A stretch of 27,151 bases of DNA, from positions 1-27,151 of the IMG/VR virus record IMGVR_UViG_3300030104_005567. One strand, written 5' to 3'. Positions within the stretch are counted from its first letter, which is position 1, and each line of letters starts with the position of its first letter. This stretch comes from a virus. Below the pieces are notes generated by a model. It was not told where the DNA came from. It worked only from the letters and a program-made list of their open reading frames with translations, and did not search any database. Both the position numbers and the translations under genes were made by a program. This document shows positions 21,951 through 27,151 of the stretch, piece after piece.

Positions 21951-22787
21951 ATGTTTAAGATATCACTGTTTGAGAATAGATTCTCAAGGGTCCCCCAGTC
22001 TATAGAGATAGACCTACATAATCTCAAGAGGGGACTACTGAAACCATCTAAGAACTATCCAGTAAAAGAGAAGAACTCTTTACCTCTATGGAGTCCTACC
22101 ATCTTTAACGGTAACAGGTGCGGAGCCAATGCCATCCAAATCTCTTGTTTAGTGTATGATCTAGATGATGGAACCAGCATAGAAGAGAGAACCAAGTTCC
22201 AAAAGTACAATTATCTATTCCACACTTCATTCTCTCACACTGAAGAGAAACACAAATACAGAATTATCTTCCCATTAGCGGAACCAATACCAGCCAAAGA
22301 CTGGAGAAGAGCCTCTATAGCTGCTAAGAACTTATGGGCTAATACCATTGGAGTAGGCTCTCCAGATAGCTCAGCTATAACAGATGTGGCTAGGATGTAT
22401 TATAGATATGCTATTCCAGATTATAACGGAGCCTCTATCATCCAGCATACTGATTATAATGAGGGAGAGTATCTCTCTCTGGATTATTCTCAGATAGTAT
22501 TTGAGGACCCAAAGAAGAATAGATATAAGAGATGGCAACCAAGGACAGAGGGATCCAAGATGGGAATGGAGGCTCTGTTCCATAATGCCTCATTCAGATT
22601 GGGAATAGCAGAGAAGATCGGAGCCTCTGTAGAGGGAAACACTGCTAGAAATATTCGATGTCCGAATTGTGGAGAGTATGATGTGTATTATAGTATTGAT
22701 CCCTCTTATCCTTACACTGTTTTATATCCTCACTGTAATAGAGTAAACAAATGTGGATGGTGGGGGAGATTGGAGGACCTGTTATGA
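21951..22787 (+). CDS. Primase (prim-pol-like) with C-terminal zinc motif
   Basis: Replication priming protein of 278 residues. A Y-D-L-D-D segment (D70, D72, D73) after the strand IQISCLV fits the metal-binding Asp pair of archaeo-eukaryotic primase-like (AEP) domains. It is followed by FHTSFSHTEEKHKYRIIFPL (about 90-109), a His-containing strand pair, and TDVARMYYRYAIP (about 143-155). The last 45 residues carry CPNC (237-240) and an HCN...KCGWW cluster (C262, C268), a zinc ribbon that may read the template. Its gene ends in an ATGA with an HTH-like gene, and the VapE-like helicase follows, so primase and helicase are separate proteins here rather than one fusion. GGGGGGAGG abuts the ATG. 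Confidence 0.75.
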   Translation: MFKISLFENRFSRVPQSIEIDLHNLKRGLLKPSKNYPVKEKNSLPLWSPTIFNGNRCGANAIQISCLVYDLDDGTSIEERTKFQKYNYLFHTSFSHTEEKHKYRIIFPLAEPIPAKDWRRASIAAKNLWANTIGVGSPDSSAITDVARMYYRYAIPDYNGASIIQHTDYNEGEYLSLDYSQIVFEDPKKNRYKRWQPRTEGSKMGMEALFHNASFRLGIAEKIGASVEGNTARNIRCPNCGEYDVYYSIDPSYPYTVLYPHCNRVNKCGWWGRLEDLL

Positions 22788-23107
22788 AACATAGAGATAT
22801 GGGATATATTCCAGCTAGGCTACATCCGTTTGGATTGTATATCTGGAGAAAATTAAGAGATCAAAATAAGGATGTAGAGTATCTAACTCGAAGAACTGGA
22901 TATAATAGAGAGGCTCTATTAAGAGTATTCAGATGGGATAGACAGCCTCCGCTAGATATGTTCCTAGCAGTAGCGGAGATATTATCTGAGGATAGAGAAG
23001 AGTTTGATCGATACATTATGAATATGTTAGAACAGACTGGAGAATATCAGATGGCTAGGAGGAGACTTAGAGCCAAAGAAAACAAAACCAATAAACCAAT
23101 AGAATAA
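22784..23107 (+). CDS. HTH-like small protein between primase and helicase
   Basis: A 107-residue protein. The ATG at 22784 is chosen because it overlaps the primase stop and has TGGAGG seven bases upstream; an upstream start lies inside the zinc motif of the primase. The segment LYIWRKLRDQNKDVEYLTRRTGYNREALLRVFRWDRQPPLDMFLAVAEIL has the length and helix spacing of a Cro/C1-like HTH, with a long basic recognition helix, and is followed by a charged helical tail. It may assist origin or helicase loading given its place between the two replication genes (inference). Its final codons run over an ACCAATAA repeat. Confidence 0.6.
   Translation: MKHRDMGYIPARLHPFGLYIWRKLRDQNKDVEYLTRRTGYNREALLRVFRWDRQPPLDMFLAVAEILSEDREEFDRYIMNMLEQTGEYQMARRRLRAKENKTNKPIE
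23088..23103 (+). repeat. Two ACCAATAA-type tandem repeats
   Basis: ACCAATAA (23088-23095) and ACCAATAG (23096-23103) match the three leader repeats at 17615-17638. Here they lie in the last codons of the HTH-like gene, just upstream of the VapE-like start. Confidence 0.6.
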
Positions 23108-23116
23108 AGAGGACCA

Positions 23117-24376
23117 ATGAATGAAAAGATGAGAAAACTCCTCCAAGTAGCGGAGGAGATGGGCATTGATGCGGAGTATAAATTTGCTCCAGAGGGAGCC
23201 GATATAGAGACCTGGGACAGACTGGAGAAGTCTGATCCAAAGTTTGATAAAGAGGGCTATCTAACTAGAGCCCCGAAACCATACACCACTAGAAACAACC
23301 TAGCGATCATCCTAGAGAATGATCCAGAGTTCTTAACTCTCTGCTACAATGATCACTCTAATAAGATCAAGTGGAAGAGTGAGGAGTTATGGGATCCTCA
23401 TCTTGAGGACATAGGACTACATGTAGAGAGATGCTACAGAATAAAGTATCCAAGTCACGATATTAAGAGAGCAGTGCTAAGGGTAGCCCATAAAAATATA
23501 GAGGAGCCGATTAAGGATTGGTTAAACTCTCTACAATGGGATCAGCATCCAAGGATTAACCATCTCTTCCATAAGGTGTTTAAGGCTCAGAGGATAGATG
23601 GAGGAGATGAACTTATCCGAGAGATGAGCAGAAAGTGGATGATCTCTCTGGTGGCTCGGATTATCTTTCCAGGCTGTAAGATGGATACTTTCTTGGTATT
23701 GTGTGGAGAGAAAGGACTGGGAAAGAGTACAGCATTGAGGGCTCTTATTGGAGATGATTGGTTTTCTGATAGTCCCATAGACATCTCCAAAAAGGACTCT
23801 CTGGAACTCATACACAGTACAGAAACTTGGCTCTGGGAGTTAGCAGAACTACACTCTCTCCAAGGGAGAACAGCGGACAATTTTAAGGCTTTTATATCTA
23901 GCGGAGAGGATAAGTTCAGACCATCTTATCAGCAATTCCCTAAGACCTATAAGCGGAGAGTAGTATTTGCTGGGACCTCAAACAATTATCAATTCCTGTC
24001 CGATGGTCCAGAGAGAAGAGTTTGGCCCATAACCTGTGTAAGTGAACTAGATAACCAATACTTGATAGATAATCGGGTACAACTCTTTGCTGAGGCTATG
24101 GATGCTTTTAGGAATAAAGAGATATGGCATCTGGAGAGAGAGTCTCAGATGATGCTATCCAATCTCCAAGAGGCTTACATTATAGATGATCCTTGGGCTC
24201 TAAGAGTTAGAGAGGCTATCACTCAAGGTCTTAATACCACCAGTCAGATAATGATCTATCTGGAGCTATCTACTTCACAGCAACACTCTGGAAACGCTAG
24301 AAGAATAGCCCAGATCGCTAGAGATTATGGATATAAACAGACTATAGTGGAGGGAAAAAGAGTATGGAGAAAGTAA
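23117..24376 (+). CDS. VapE/VirE-like replicative helicase (P-loop ATPase)
   Basis: Replication helicase of the VapE or virulence-associated E family. The 419 residues have a helical N-terminal part with a WLNSLQWDQHPRI segment (residues 135-147) that is highly typical of the family, Walker A GEKGLGKST (197-205), the Walker B-like ETWLWELAEL (236-245), the F-K-A-F-I-S-S-G-E-D-K-F-R-P-S region (256-270), a GTSN sensor (286-289) and paired arginines before the WPI strand (300-305). The C-terminal ~60 residues (TSQIMIYLELS, ARRIAQIARDYGY) form a winged-helix-like end. In phages and satellites this protein works with a primase at a nearby origin, which fits the upstream primase and the mirrored element 1 kb downstream. 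Confidence 0.9.
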   Translation: MNEKMRKLLQVAEEMGIDAEYKFAPEGADIETWDRLEKSDPKFDKEGYLTRAPKPYTTRNNLAIILENDPEFLTLCYNDHSNKIKWKSEELWDPHLEDIGLHVERCYRIKYPSHDIKRAVLRVAHKNIEEPIKDWLNSLQWDQHPRINHLFHKVFKAQRIDGGDELIREMSRKWMISLVARIIFPGCKMDTFLVLCGEKGLGKSTALRALIGDDWFSDSPIDISKKDSLELIHSTETWLWELAELHSLQGRTADNFKAFISSGEDKFRPSYQQFPKTYKRRVVFAGTSNNYQFLSDGPERRVWPITCVSELDNQYLIDNRVQLFAEAMDAFRNKEIWHLERESQMMLSNLQEAYIIDDPWALRVREAITQGLNTTSQIMIYLELSTSQQHSGNARRIAQIARDYGYKQTIVEGKRVWRK

Positions 24377-25296
24377 AAGAATGGAGGCTAGGTTCTCTCT
24401 TCTCTGGGATCGGTGGCTTTGAGTTGGGATTGGAGAGAGCTATTAAAGGCTTAAGAACTGTGTGGCAAGTAGAACAAGAGCAATTTTGTCAAAGTATTTT
24501 GAGAAAACACTGGCCAGATTCAATAATTTATGATGATGTTAGAACTATAAACAAAAACAATGTAGCCCCTGTAGATATTCTATGTGGAGGCTTTCCCTGT
24601 CAAGATATATCCTTGGCTGGAAGAGGAGGAGGAATCAATGCGGAGAGGTCTGGTCTTTGGTGGGAGTACCACAGAATTATCAACGAGTTACAACCCAGAA
24701 TCGCAATCTTGGAAAACGTTACAGCTATCACTGTTCGAGGACTGGGAGCAGTACTTGGATCGCTATCCGAGATTGGGTATGATGCGGAATGGGTCACTAT
24801 ATCAGCTTCACAATTTGGAGCTCCCCATAAGAGAGACAGGTGGTTTTGTGTCGCGTATCCCAGCGGATTCGCTTGTAAGCGGAGGACTACTCCCAACACC
24901 CACAGCAACAGGATCAGAACACAGAACACGATACAGCCAAGGGGGGAGACCTCTAATGTATATGATAGAGAAAGGGATGCTACCTACTCCAACCTCAAGC
25001 GATTGGAAAAGGGAGACACCATCCAAAAGAGACTACAACACAAAAGAGAGAGGGGTGGGAATGGGTCTACCAGCACAAGTAGTACTATCAACGGGAATAA
25101 CAAAAGAGGAGGCTATTGGGCAACGTTTCCAACTCAACCCCCAGTTTTTAGAAGAGATGATGGGGTTTCCAATAGGATGGACCGAGCCTCTAACAGAATC
25201 CGAAAGAACAGAATCAGAGCCCTAGGAAATGCAATAGTTCCACAATGTAGCCAATGGATTGGAGAAAAGATCTGGGATAGTGGATTGTTATTCTAG
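24364..25296 (+). CDS. C5-cytosine DNA methyltransferase (Dcm-like)
   Basis: Methylates cytosine at C5. The 310 residues contain the usual motifs: LFSGIGGFELG (I, about 12-22), GGFPCQDIS (IV, with catalytic Cys79), LENV (VI, 116-119), FGAPHKRDRWF (VIII, 151-161), and the GNAIVPQ of motif X (288-294). The region between about 165 and 275 is polar and Arg/Asn/Thr-rich (TPNTHSNRIRTQNT, KRLQHKRERGG) where the recognition domain is expected. This frame shares its bases with a second conserved gene (24638-25225), which probably limits its sequence. It overlaps the VapE-like gene by 13 bases and is the last early gene before the terminator. Catalysis looks intact. Confidence 0.92.
   Translation: MEKVKEWRLGSLFSGIGGFELGLERAIKGLRTVWQVEQEQFCQSILRKHWPDSIIYDDVRTINKNNVAPVDILCGGFPCQDISLAGRGGGINAERSGLWWEYHRIINELQPRIAILENVTAITVRGLGAVLGSLSEIGYDAEWVTISASQFGAPHKRDRWFCVAYPSGFACKRRTTPNTHSNRIRTQNTIQPRGETSNVYDRERDATYSNLKRLEKGDTIQKRLQHKRERGGNGSTSTSSTINGNNKRGGYWATFPTQPPVFRRDDGVSNRMDRASNRIRKNRIRALGNAIVPQCSQWIGEKIWDSGLLF
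24638..25225 (+). CDS. Embedded +1-frame methyltransferase-associated protein
   Basis: A 195-residue protein in a second frame, lying entirely inside the C5 methyltransferase gene. Its ATG has AGGAGG (24627-24632) with five bases between. It shows motifs I recognise from a conserved phage family often fused to or next to C5 methyltransferases: QSWKTLQLSL (23-32), GMMRNG (47-52), LLPTPTA (84-90), MLPTPTSSDW (114-123) and LNPQF...EMMGFPIGW (166-181). These match that family's W-K-T, G-M-M-R-N-G, L-P-T-P-T-x-S-D and L-N-P-x-F-x-x-x-M-M-G-F-P-x-G-W patterns, which would not arise in a random frame. The role is unknown, perhaps target recognition or a cofactor. A GTG at 24584 would add 18 residues. 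Confidence 0.85.
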   Translation: MRRGLVFGGSTTELSTSYNPESQSWKTLQLSLFEDWEQYLDRYPRLGMMRNGSLYQLHNLELPIRETGGFVSRIPADSLVSGGLLPTPTATGSEHRTRYSQGGRPLMYMIEKGMLPTPTSSDWKRETPSKRDYNTKERGVGMGLPAQVVLSTGITKEEAIGQRFQLNPQFLEEMMGFPIGWTEPLTESERTESEP

Positions 25297-25341
25297 AATT
25301 TGATATACTGTATATACGAGAGTTCCTCTTGTTTATTGGTT

Positions 25342-25370
25342 AACCCCCTTGCTCATCCAAGGGGGTTTTT
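25342..25370 (+). terminator. Strong intrinsic terminator of the early operon
   Basis: AACCCCCTTG (25342-25351) pairs perfectly with CAAGGGGGTT (25358-25367), ten pairs around loop CTCATC. The last stem bases begin a run of five T residues (25366-25370). It lies about 45 bases after the methyltransferase stop, at the end of the early operon and before the mirrored element. Confidence 0.9.
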
Positions 25371-25380
25371 CAGTTTCTAT

Positions 25381-25684
25381 ACAGATAGATCAGTTTAAAA
25401 TACAGATAATAACAGATAAGATACAGATAATAACAGATGGTTAAAAGTGCTACGTTATCGAGTACTACAGTACAAAATATCAAAAAACAAAGATAATTAG
25501 TAGTTAGTTTATATAGAGAATAATAATAGTAGTAGTATTATTATAATTATAGGGAACTGATCTAGAATATAGGCAAAAAGTACACTCTGATCTAGAGAGT
25601 AACGGAGTTATCGTAGAATCATCTATCTGTTATTATCTGTTAATTATCTGTTATTATCTGTTAATTATCAGATTCTATCTGTTT
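25381..25684. repeat. Mirrored phased-repeat element (candidate replication origin)
   Basis: Non-coding region of about 280 bases plus the end of the minus-strand gene. The left arm has ACAGATAA-type octamers at 25381, 25402, 25412, 25423 and 25433. The right arm has the reverse complement ATCTGTTA type at 25625, 25635, 25646, 25656 and 25677. Each arm has one degenerate site (near 25391 and 25667). Spacing outward from the centre is 10, 11, 10, 11, 10 in both. The 37-base cores 25402-25438 and 25625-25661 are identical on opposite strands except for five central bases. The axis is at 25531.5 and carries a hairpin. Phasing near one helical turn suggests a protein bound along one face: a replication initiator, a partition protein or a regulator. 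Confidence 0.85.
25520..25544. other. Hairpin on the axis of the mirrored element
   Basis: ATAATAATA (25520-25528) pairs with TATTATTAT (25536-25544) around GTAGTAG. Its centre, 25532, agrees within a base with the axis of the outer arms. It is all A-T in the stem, so it melts easily, as expected of an unwinding element. Flanking it are two CTGATCTAGA direct repeats (25557-25566, 25587-25596) on the right only, and the dyad GTACT-AC-AGTAC (25462-25473) on the left. Confidence 0.75.
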
Positions 25685-26008
25685 TATAGCACGGTTAACC
25701 CATCTACGAGCTGGAGTACCACCCCAGAGAGCCCAAGCAATTGAGGCTTTGGATGTCTTATCCTGTCTAGCCTTAGATTCTTTAGGGCTCTCTCCGTGTC
25801 TAGCAAACCAAGCTCTCATAAGAATAAGCTGCTCCAGATCTACCTTACCAGAGATTAATTTTCTAGCGGTCCTCATCCCTGTTCCAGGCTTTCTCTTTCC
25901 ATCCTCATCCTTATATGCAGCTCTATTAGATATGGATAGAGATAGATTATATTCAATAGCTCTTTTGGCTATTAGTTGTATGTTTTTTGGTACTGTTACC
26001 GTAGGCAT
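25661..26008 (-). CDS. Conserved phage protein of unknown function, minus strand
   Basis: A 115-residue basic protein, clear on the minus strand, with GGAG six bases before its ATG. Residues about 8-55 form a helical N-terminal region with TGMRTARKLISGKVDLEQL, and the C-terminal motif KASIAWALWGGTPARRWVNRAIKQ (about 86-109) is one I recognise from many small phage proteins of unknown function (pattern A-W-x-L-W-G-G-x-x-x-x-x-W). That region resembles a small DNA- or nucleotide-binding module but this is not established. Its last codons overlap the outer sites of the right arm of the mirrored element, so it may regulate or be regulated there. It is divergent from the + strand gene starting near 26037. 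Confidence 0.75.
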   Translation of the reverse strand: MPTVTVPKNIQLIAKRAIEYNLSLSISNRAAYKDEDGKRKPGTGMRTARKLISGKVDLEQLILMRAWFARHGESPKESKARQDKTSKASIAWALWGGTPARRWVNRAIKQIESDN

Positions 26009-26036
26009 AAGGGGCTCCGATGAGTTATATTATGTT

Positions 26037-26360
26037 ATGAAGATTGTTAATGAACTACCCAAAGATCGCAAAATACTATCCGAGATATTCCAAGGCTTAG
26101 AGGTTGAGGTTCCATTCTGCATAGAGGAAGCTCAAGAGATACTCAGACTACAGATAGAACAGCTCCACGATGCTATCCAATACAAAGAGATAGGGGATAC
26201 ATCTATTATATCAGTGAATGGAGAGATCTACATTGAGGCTAAGTGGGATATGATTGGAGTGATGTTAGATATTAAGAAAGAACAATTCCCTTGTATGGGA
26301 TTGATAGGAACAATATTAACAACAATTAAGATATTAAGAGGAGATGATACAGATGGCTAG
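26037..26360 (+). CDS. Small hypothetical protein (107 aa)
   Basis: Unrecognised. The open frame extends upstream to 25749, but that part is antisense to the minus-strand gene and lacks phage-like composition (hydrophobic Cys/Leu/Ser), so the ATG at 26037 is preferred. The protein has an MKIVNELPKDRKILSEIFQGLEVEVPFCIEEAQEILRLQIEQL helical half and a beta-prone end (SIISVNGEIYIEAKWDMIGVML). No ribosome site is obvious. Only about 28 bases separate it from the divergent gene start, leaving little room for two promoters. The last 8 bases overlap the next gene. Confidence 0.55.
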   Translation: MKIVNELPKDRKILSEIFQGLEVEVPFCIEEAQEILRLQIEQLHDAIQYKEIGDTSIISVNGEIYIEAKWDMIGVMLDIKKEQFPCMGLIGTILTTIKILRGDDTDG

Positions 26361-26571
26361 AAGTGCTAGAGATAACGAACTAATCACATACAAGGTCCAG
26401 CAACTACAGAGAGAGGGATATGCTTTGGACCAAGCCCAAGCTATAGCCCTTAGAATGTACAGGGATGGAGAGTTAAGAGGGACTACTCCAACAGCTCCCA
26501 AGTATACAGCTAAGGATAAAAAGAATATGAATAGGAGACTACGAAGAGCCCATAGGAGTTATCGGAGATGA
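26353..26571 (+). CDS. Small helical basic protein (72 aa)
   Basis: Unrecognised. The ATG at 26353 is preferred to one at 26344 because GAGGAG (26338-26343) is nine bases away from it and would abut the other. The segment ITYKVQQLQREGYALDQAQAIALRMYRDGEL is a helix-turn-helix-like pair resembling small UBA-type domains, followed by a Lys/Arg-rich tail (AKDKKNMNRRLRRAHRSYRR) that may bind nucleic acid. It overlaps its neighbours at both ends (8 bases upstream, ATGA downstream), so it is translationally coupled. Function unknown. Confidence 0.6.
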   Translation: MARSARDNELITYKVQQLQREGYALDQAQAIALRMYRDGELRGTTPTAPKYTAKDKKNMNRRLRRAHRSYRR

Positions 26572-26645
26572 ACGTATACAAAAGAAAAAAGAAACCTTTA
26601 AAGCCTAAGAAACAAAGGACAAAGAGAAAAGGTTATGGCAAATAA
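26568..26645 (+). CDS. 25-aa Lys/Arg-rich mini-gene
   Basis: A short frame starting in an ATGA with the previous stop and preceded by AGGAG nine bases upstream. It encodes MNVYKRKKKPLKPKKQRTKR and ends with KGYGK, more than half Lys or Arg. It overlaps the next gene by 11 bases. The coupled start and ribosome site suggest it is translated, either as a functional peptide or as a leader coupling the next gene. A chance frame is possible because the region is A-rich. Confidence 0.45.
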   Translation: MNVYKRKKKPLKPKKQRTKRKGYGK

Positions 26646-27108
26646 AGTACCGAAGAAATATACTCAAGGCTTGAGTAAGTCAACAAGTGATAAGCGTAAA
26701 GCAGAGATCCGAAAGAGACAGAAAGGGAAGAAGAGCTTTGAGAAGTTGCCTGGTGATACCAAAGCAGAAACCAAGCCAAGCAAGTATACAAAGAGAATCA
26801 AAGCCTCTGGACTCCGATCAGTTATCCAAGAGGAGACTACTAAGAAAACCGGATCCCAGAGAGAGAGATTCATTAAAGCAGTAGCCAGTGTAACCGATAT
26901 ACCAAAAGGAATAATTCAAGAGGTATATGATAAAGGGTTAGCAGCTTGGGCAGTAGGACACAGACCCGGAGCAACTCAAGATCAATGGGCTAGGGCTAGA
27001 GTATATAGCTTTATAAGTAGAGGGAAAACCACAGAGACAGCAGATAAACAACTTTTTGAGGATGCCAAAGAGGCACTTAAGAAAAAAGGGAAGAGGTTCC
27101 CTCGATAG
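26635..27108 (+). CDS. DUF5824-like phage protein
   Basis: A 157-residue basic protein. The first ~50 residues are a Lys/Arg/Ser-rich, likely disordered tail. The rest (KYTKRIKASGLRSVIQEETT, FIKAVASVTDIPKGIIQEVYDKGLAAWAVGHRPGATQDQWARARVYSFISRGKTTETAD, about residues 50-140) matches my recollection of the DUF5824 family found in tailed phages and some large DNA viruses: V-Y-x-x-G-x-A-A-W-x-x-G-H-R-P-G-A, W-x-x-A-R-V-x-S-F and a K-T-x-x-x-A-D end. Function is not established. A ribosome site is not clear (an AGAAAAGG stretch lies upstream), and translation may be coupled to the 25-aa mini-gene it overlaps. It lies near the window edge, where terminase genes may follow. Confidence 0.65.
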   Translation: MANKVPKKYTQGLSKSTSDKRKAEIRKRQKGKKSFEKLPGDTKAETKPSKYTKRIKASGLRSVIQEETTKKTGSQRERFIKAVASVTDIPKGIIQEVYDKGLAAWAVGHRPGATQDQWARARVYSFISRGKTTETADKQLFEDAKEALKKKGKRFPR

Positions 27109-27113
27109 GGGCT

Positions 27114-27151
27114 ATGTGCTCGGACCAGATAGAGGGGGCACTTCTCTCACA
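27114..27151 (+). CDS. Start of a further gene, cut by the window edge
   Basis: An ATG six bases after the previous stop opens a frame running off the end (MCSDQIEGALLS). AGGGG precedes it closely. The order DUF-type gene then terminase would be normal for such a phage, but 12 codons do not allow recognition. Confidence 0.35.
   Translation, partial: MCSDQIEGALLS

Follow-up and report, generated by a model that had tools for sequence, protein, structure and literature searches.

The closest described systems are the replication origins of phage satellites. In PICI origins, two sets of iterons always flank an AT-rich region (PMC6092414). In SaPIs, the C-terminal domain of Rep recognises an iteron origin located directly downstream of the rep gene (PMC7581432), and the repeats, which stand in opposite orientations, load two head-to-head hexamers (PMC9894130). 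Opposed sites also load two head-to-head hexamers at the origins of SV40 large T antigen and papillomavirus E1 (PMC9894130). The putative SCCmec Cch2 origin has iterons directly downstream of the gene for a D5-like helicase, whose C-terminal domain binds them in vitro (PMC7581432).

The window analysed here is the whole of a 27,151-bp IMG/VR record (IMGVR_UViG_3300030104_005567). It contains a mirrored ladder of octamers that is very probably a phage DNA replication origin of the SaPI/PICI kind, with octamers that would be recognised by the C-terminal winged helix of a VapE-like helicase. The VapE-proximal left arm (25381-25440, plus strand) has six rungs of the site ACAGATAA and is mirrored by the six rungs of the right arm (25623-25682, minus strand). 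Scored as matches to ACAGATAA and read outward from the axis, the left-arm rungs begin at 25433 (6/8), 25423 (8/8), 25412 (8/8), 25402 (8/8), 25391 (3/8, degenerate) and 25381 (7/8), and the right-arm rungs at 25623 (7/8), 25633 (8/8), 25644 (8/8), 25654 (8/8), 25665 (6/8) and 25675 (7/8). The outward steps are 10, 11, 10, 11 and 10 in both arms, and no rungs were present at positions 7-8 of either arm. The 37-base arm cores agree on opposite strands at 34 of 37 positions. The axis lies at 25531.5 and the arms are 182 bp apart. A detector that scores mirrored ladders with 10/11-bp phasing gave 18.5 at the ladder and at most 6.0 across positions 1-25300. Controls with other gap sets or non-mirrored arms also peaked at 6.0, as did 400 dinucleotide shuffles of the ladder region, none of which reached the score of 8 used to call a ladder in relatives; the maximum among 40 shuffles of the whole window was 6.5. 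The ladder is real and far beyond chance. The rung positions and the detector score thus bear out the mirrored arms and the spacing reported in a preliminary description of this DNA, and its estimate of about 185 bases from arm to arm was close. Its opposite-strand core match holds as well, with three contiguous mismatches in place of the five central bases claimed.

Between the arms is an AT-rich centre (25441-25622; 73% AT compared to 59% for the window), the proposed melting region, in which the most AT-rich 50-mer starts at 25502 and is 86% AT. An A/T inverted repeat of 12 bp (25520-25544) is centred at 25532, within one base of the axis as had been noted. An axial palindrome recurs in some close relatives, but in most others the axis does not fold more stably than shuffled sequence, which argues against the coaxial hairpin as a general part of the family's ladders. 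An Rfam search of 25280-25720 gave no match, and a DNA-level search of a phage collection with 23117-27151 returned a single match of 58 bp. GC skew, which had been proposed as a check, showed no switch at the ladder and was uninformative because nearly all window genes sit on one strand.

On the plus strand the ladder is preceded by a primase-like gene (21951-22787; weak PHROG primase hits, with the same gene order in relatives), a small open reading frame (22751-23107), the gene for the VapE-like AAA+ initiator helicase that we propose as both reader and self-loading helicase (23117-24376; Pfam PF05272, E 2.8e-60), a C5-cytosine methyltransferase gene (24364-25296) and a strong terminator-like hairpin with a T tail (25342-25367). 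The hairpin bounds the ladder region on the left and, from its terminator-like sequence, probably ends the VapE-methyltransferase transcription unit ahead of the ladder. A 115-aa open reading frame with no assigned function (25661-26008, minus strand) is convergent with vapE, and its last codons overlap the right arm. Its product had no match in Pfam, PHROG or NCBIfam; more than 100 relatives were present in IMG/VR, with or without VapE. The first 1-16 kb or so of the window hold a morphogenesis-type gene block, few genes of which were named by profile libraries; a PICI satellite, by comparison, has no full set of structural genes and relies on a helper phage. The distance of 1 kb between vapE and the ladder was correctly reported, but it is owed to the intervening methyltransferase gene: in many relatives that lack this cassette the ladder begins 130-205 bp past the VapE stop codon. 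The cassette is optional: of 36 relatives, about a quarter have it at precisely this place, after vapE and before the ladder. That it is an insert supports the origin reading, and a link between origin methylation and replication is possible.

The VapE gene product resembles a satellite initiator over its full length. Two structure models (mean pLDDT 87.7 and 90.9) were obtained, and the best structural match was 7PDS ("PriRep1 with dsDNA"; Z 30.9), which covered residues 29-419, winged helix included. The second-best match had a Z of 13.9, and the helicase folds of E1 and AAV Rep were also among the matches. The VapE sequence profile matched the 7PDS protein ("Similar to D. nodosus vapE"), which we take to be a SaPI Rep, with an E value of 3.4e-57. 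The C-terminal winged-helix domain (residues 355-419; 24179-24376, plus strand) is predicted to have the order helix-helix-helix-strand-strand, with a recognition helix at about residues 391/393-403 that includes R395. Searched alone, this domain gave weak PDB matches, several of which were winged helices. With its AAA+ domain and C-terminal winged helix, the protein belongs to the VapE-like/SaPI Rep family.

The preliminary description offered no precedent among phage origins for this exact mirrored geometry. The geometry is less unprecedented than that, as in SaPI and PICI satellites, too, iteron sets of opposite orientation lie on either side of an AT-rich region 3' of rep (PMC6092414, PMC9894130), and a SaPI/PICI-type origin is a kind already known from phage satellites. 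The window shares with these origins two iteron sets that flank an AT-rich centre, the opposite orientation of the two sets, a helicase homologous to a SaPI-type Rep and a position 3' of the helicase gene, directly so in many relatives and with the methyltransferase gene between in the window. Unlike the satellite origins, window-type ladders occur in tailed phages that appear to have morphogenesis genes of their own. Further distinguishing traits are arms at a near-constant distance from each other, at most six positions per arm with the fifth vacant in the VapE-proximal arm, and the methyltransferase cassette that may sit between vapE and the ladder. Strict 10/11-bp phasing is likewise a trait of window-type ladders and may set them apart from SaPI iterons; in two Streptococcus satellite loci, opposed sites come after a short set phased at 11 bp. 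The SCCmec Cch2 origin differs in having three direct iterons only, with no mirrored ladder described, and the SV40 large T and E1 origins differ in site number and spacing and in the N-terminal rather than C-terminal location of the DNA-binding domain. Iteron plasmids and the phage lambda origin also combine short repeats with an AT-rich region, but there the repeats are direct and on one side, and the initiator recruits host DnaB and is not itself a helicase. What appears to be new is that many related phages with a morphogenesis-type gene block have probable origins of this kind, together with strict helical phasing, a near-constant span, a vacant rung and a natural record of password switching. 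No description of these phage origins was found in the literature searched, a body that excluded most subscription papers.

Relatives were retrieved from IMG/VR with the 115-aa open reading frame and VapE as queries, and, with vapE read in its own sense, a ladder was counted when it lay no more than 3 kb past the gene and had a score of at least 8. A mirrored ladder was detected 3' of vapE in 86 loci, or 44 after removal of near-copies of VapE. About 36 of the 44 are clear relatives, and the eight weakest and most distant loci were not relied on. Among 46 loci without VapE, one reached a detector score of 8, with a GC-repeat as its word. The distance between mirrored key bases was 191-198 bp in 26 of the 33 clear relatives that could be put in register, 203-214 bp in six and 182 bp in one. 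Helical quantisation of the arm-to-arm distance was also considered; the resultant was 0.54-0.60 for periods of 10-11 among loci that are not independent, and quantisation is not claimed. One natural variant (L088:10249-10433) has both arms intact only 98 bp apart (key-base distance 105) and lacks the AT-rich centre found in its relative L104; it is a deletion mutant, a miniature or an assembly artefact.

Rung occupancy was compared across 32 loci. Positions 1-4 of the VapE-proximal arm were occupied in 26-32 loci, position 5 in one and position 6 in 18. In the other arm positions 1-3 were occupied in all 32 loci and positions 4, 5 and 6 in 19, 10 and 10, respectively. Neither arm extended past position 6. 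The degenerate fifth rung, first noted for both arms of the window, is therefore a family trait in the arm nearer to vapE, whereas the opposite arm shows it less clearly. The centre is AT-rich in most relatives too. A scan of a genome collection gave five ladder loci, of which only two, in a Myxococcota MAG and in Methylomonas, were clear VapE relatives.

Spacing and mirror symmetry were kept among relatives while the site word changed, an outcome set beforehand as support for function. The word is ACAGATAA-like in the nearest kin of the window, ACACTAG in sisters whose VapE is about 70% identical and AATACACG or CAGATAAAA in a clade where that identity is about 46-48%; more distant loci had TTCACAC, GCAGATAA, TGACAGATAA, GCCACATAA and other words. 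As judged from these sequences, a change of word with geometry retained is the behaviour expected of a site that evolves in concert with the protein bound to it, because unconstrained drift would not keep both arms and all rungs in step. Of 36 loci, 34 pair CAG sites with R at VapE residue 395 or CAC sites with K. On a VapE tree built without the C-terminal domain the K/CAC label needs at least four changes, and the coupled switch from R to K and from CAG to CAC therefore arose more than once. In a column scan of 45 clade I and 23 clade II loci, residue 395 alone among the VapE columns underwent an identical swap in both clades, from R to K as CAG became CAC. The site-tracking columns of the primase and of one HTH protein were inconsistent. 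Because there are exceptions (R with CAC-type sites in L146 and L151 and, by eye, K with CAG in L036), the R/K rule is a lead for one probable contact and not a code. Partial Mantel correlations for the winged helix and the AAA domain were both significant and similar (0.24 and 0.27), and the test was not decisive as a discriminator between the two domains. The VapE C-terminal winged helix appears to read the octamers, and the co-switch of R395/K395 lends this indirect support.

The same comparisons bear on other candidate readers. The ladder might be an operator or silencer bound cooperatively by a phage HTH repressor or by the 115-aa protein to control transcription; phased operator arrays exist, and the window encodes HTH_3 proteins. 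We consider this highly improbable. The ladder lies between convergent genes and behind a terminator-like hairpin, and promoter-like sites are no more frequent at the ladder than in shuffles. In clade II, contigs with a ladder yielded no copy of the HTH gene at 22751. As for the minus-strand protein (25661-26008), which had been listed among possible binders, none of its columns tracked site type in both clades, and all eight contigs with a close copy of its gene and no VapE lacked a ladder; it is an unlikely binder.

DnaA boxes (TTATCCACA) were concentrated beside the ladder in related loci, with 24 in the 37.7 kb within 400 bp of a ladder compared to 10 in the 259 kb elsewhere, a density about 16 times that of the remainder of the same loci. 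Five loci (L089, L104, L099, L135 and L162) have three to eight perfect boxes arrayed beside the ladder, and the window itself has none near its ladder. A phage contig that has the same 115-aa open reading frame and a DUF5824 gene but no detectable VapE (L032) has paired DnaA boxes (GAGTTATCCACA), repeated as five units of 32 bp, in the corresponding gap (2325-2485), where a DnaA-type origin has possibly been exchanged into the same place.

The DnaA boxes of the relatives and the position 3' of a helicase gene point to an origin rather than to a partition site, the other function that the preliminary description had put forward. Plasmid parC sites include arrays of 11-bp repeats, and some plasmid partition sites resemble the ladder in having two arms of helically phased short repeats, so that a ParB- or ParR-like adaptor on the rungs could segregate an extrachromosomal prophage. 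Among the window proteins scanned, which included part of the small open reading frames, none resembled ParA, ParB or ParR, and no partition gene pair (ParA or ParM with ParB or ParR) was found linked to the ladder. What the ladder accompanies is VapE, together with the recognition residue of that helicase. A centromere-like site is accordingly very unlikely, whereas the origin half of the proposal is strongly supported by comparison. A pac or cos site read by the small terminase is just as unlikely: terminase small subunits can bind phased repeats and about 1.5 kb separates the ladder from the record's right end, but its site type covaries with a helicase residue, it remains 3' of vapE in otherwise different phages and its mirrored arms around an AT-rich centre are a trait of origins.

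A replication origin is by far the best reading of the ladder because the homology of VapE, the cited SaPI/PICI parallels, the DnaA boxes, the 3' position and the gaps of named phages described below combine. We infer that the C-terminal winged helix of VapE would recognise the octamers. The spacing of 10/11 bp would place all rungs of one arm on one face of the DNA, and several VapE protomers could therefore align and assemble into a hexamer. Because the arms are mirrored, two AAA+ hexamers would face each other across about 185 bp that include the AT-rich stretch, which the opposed helicases would melt, and the neighbouring primase-like protein may then start synthesis in both directions. 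A tentative and rather doubtful extension is that one hexamer docks on each arm as on a rail. Up to six phased positions, one of them often vacant, would serve the winged helices of six protomers, and the near-constant span would hold two opposed rings at a fixed distance before the DNA is sheared open. Octamer and recognition-helix residue would change together as a password that separates the origins of co-infecting phages, and these might be the first origins of this type described from tailed phages that are autonomous. Because the ladder can be read from sequence 3' of vapE, origins can be predicted in many uncultured phages. Octamer and recognition helix vary naturally, which opens both the helicase-origin code and the model of head-to-head loading to direct tests.

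Named phages with VapE were also inspected. The strict detector found no equally regular ladder in them except for a weak one in Lactobacillus phage PLE2, and no clear ladder was seen in the gap in SJC25, BV200P1 and Lactococcus 1358. Despite the negative detector results, iterons were plain by eye in several named phages, in which a gap of 240-390 bp directly 3' of vapE contained opposed iterons with a different word. In Enterococcus phiFL4A, Streptococcus Javan100, Bacteroides F2, Paenibacillus FutureBee and Acutalibacter Fontainebleau (L227, L228, L230, L231 and L237) the gap that follows vapE is unannotated, filled with iterons and 240-330 bp long. From their sequence, the gaps in these five phages are likely origins. 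The gene past the gap is unnamed in Javan100 and encodes a VRR-NUC protein or endonuclease in the other four.
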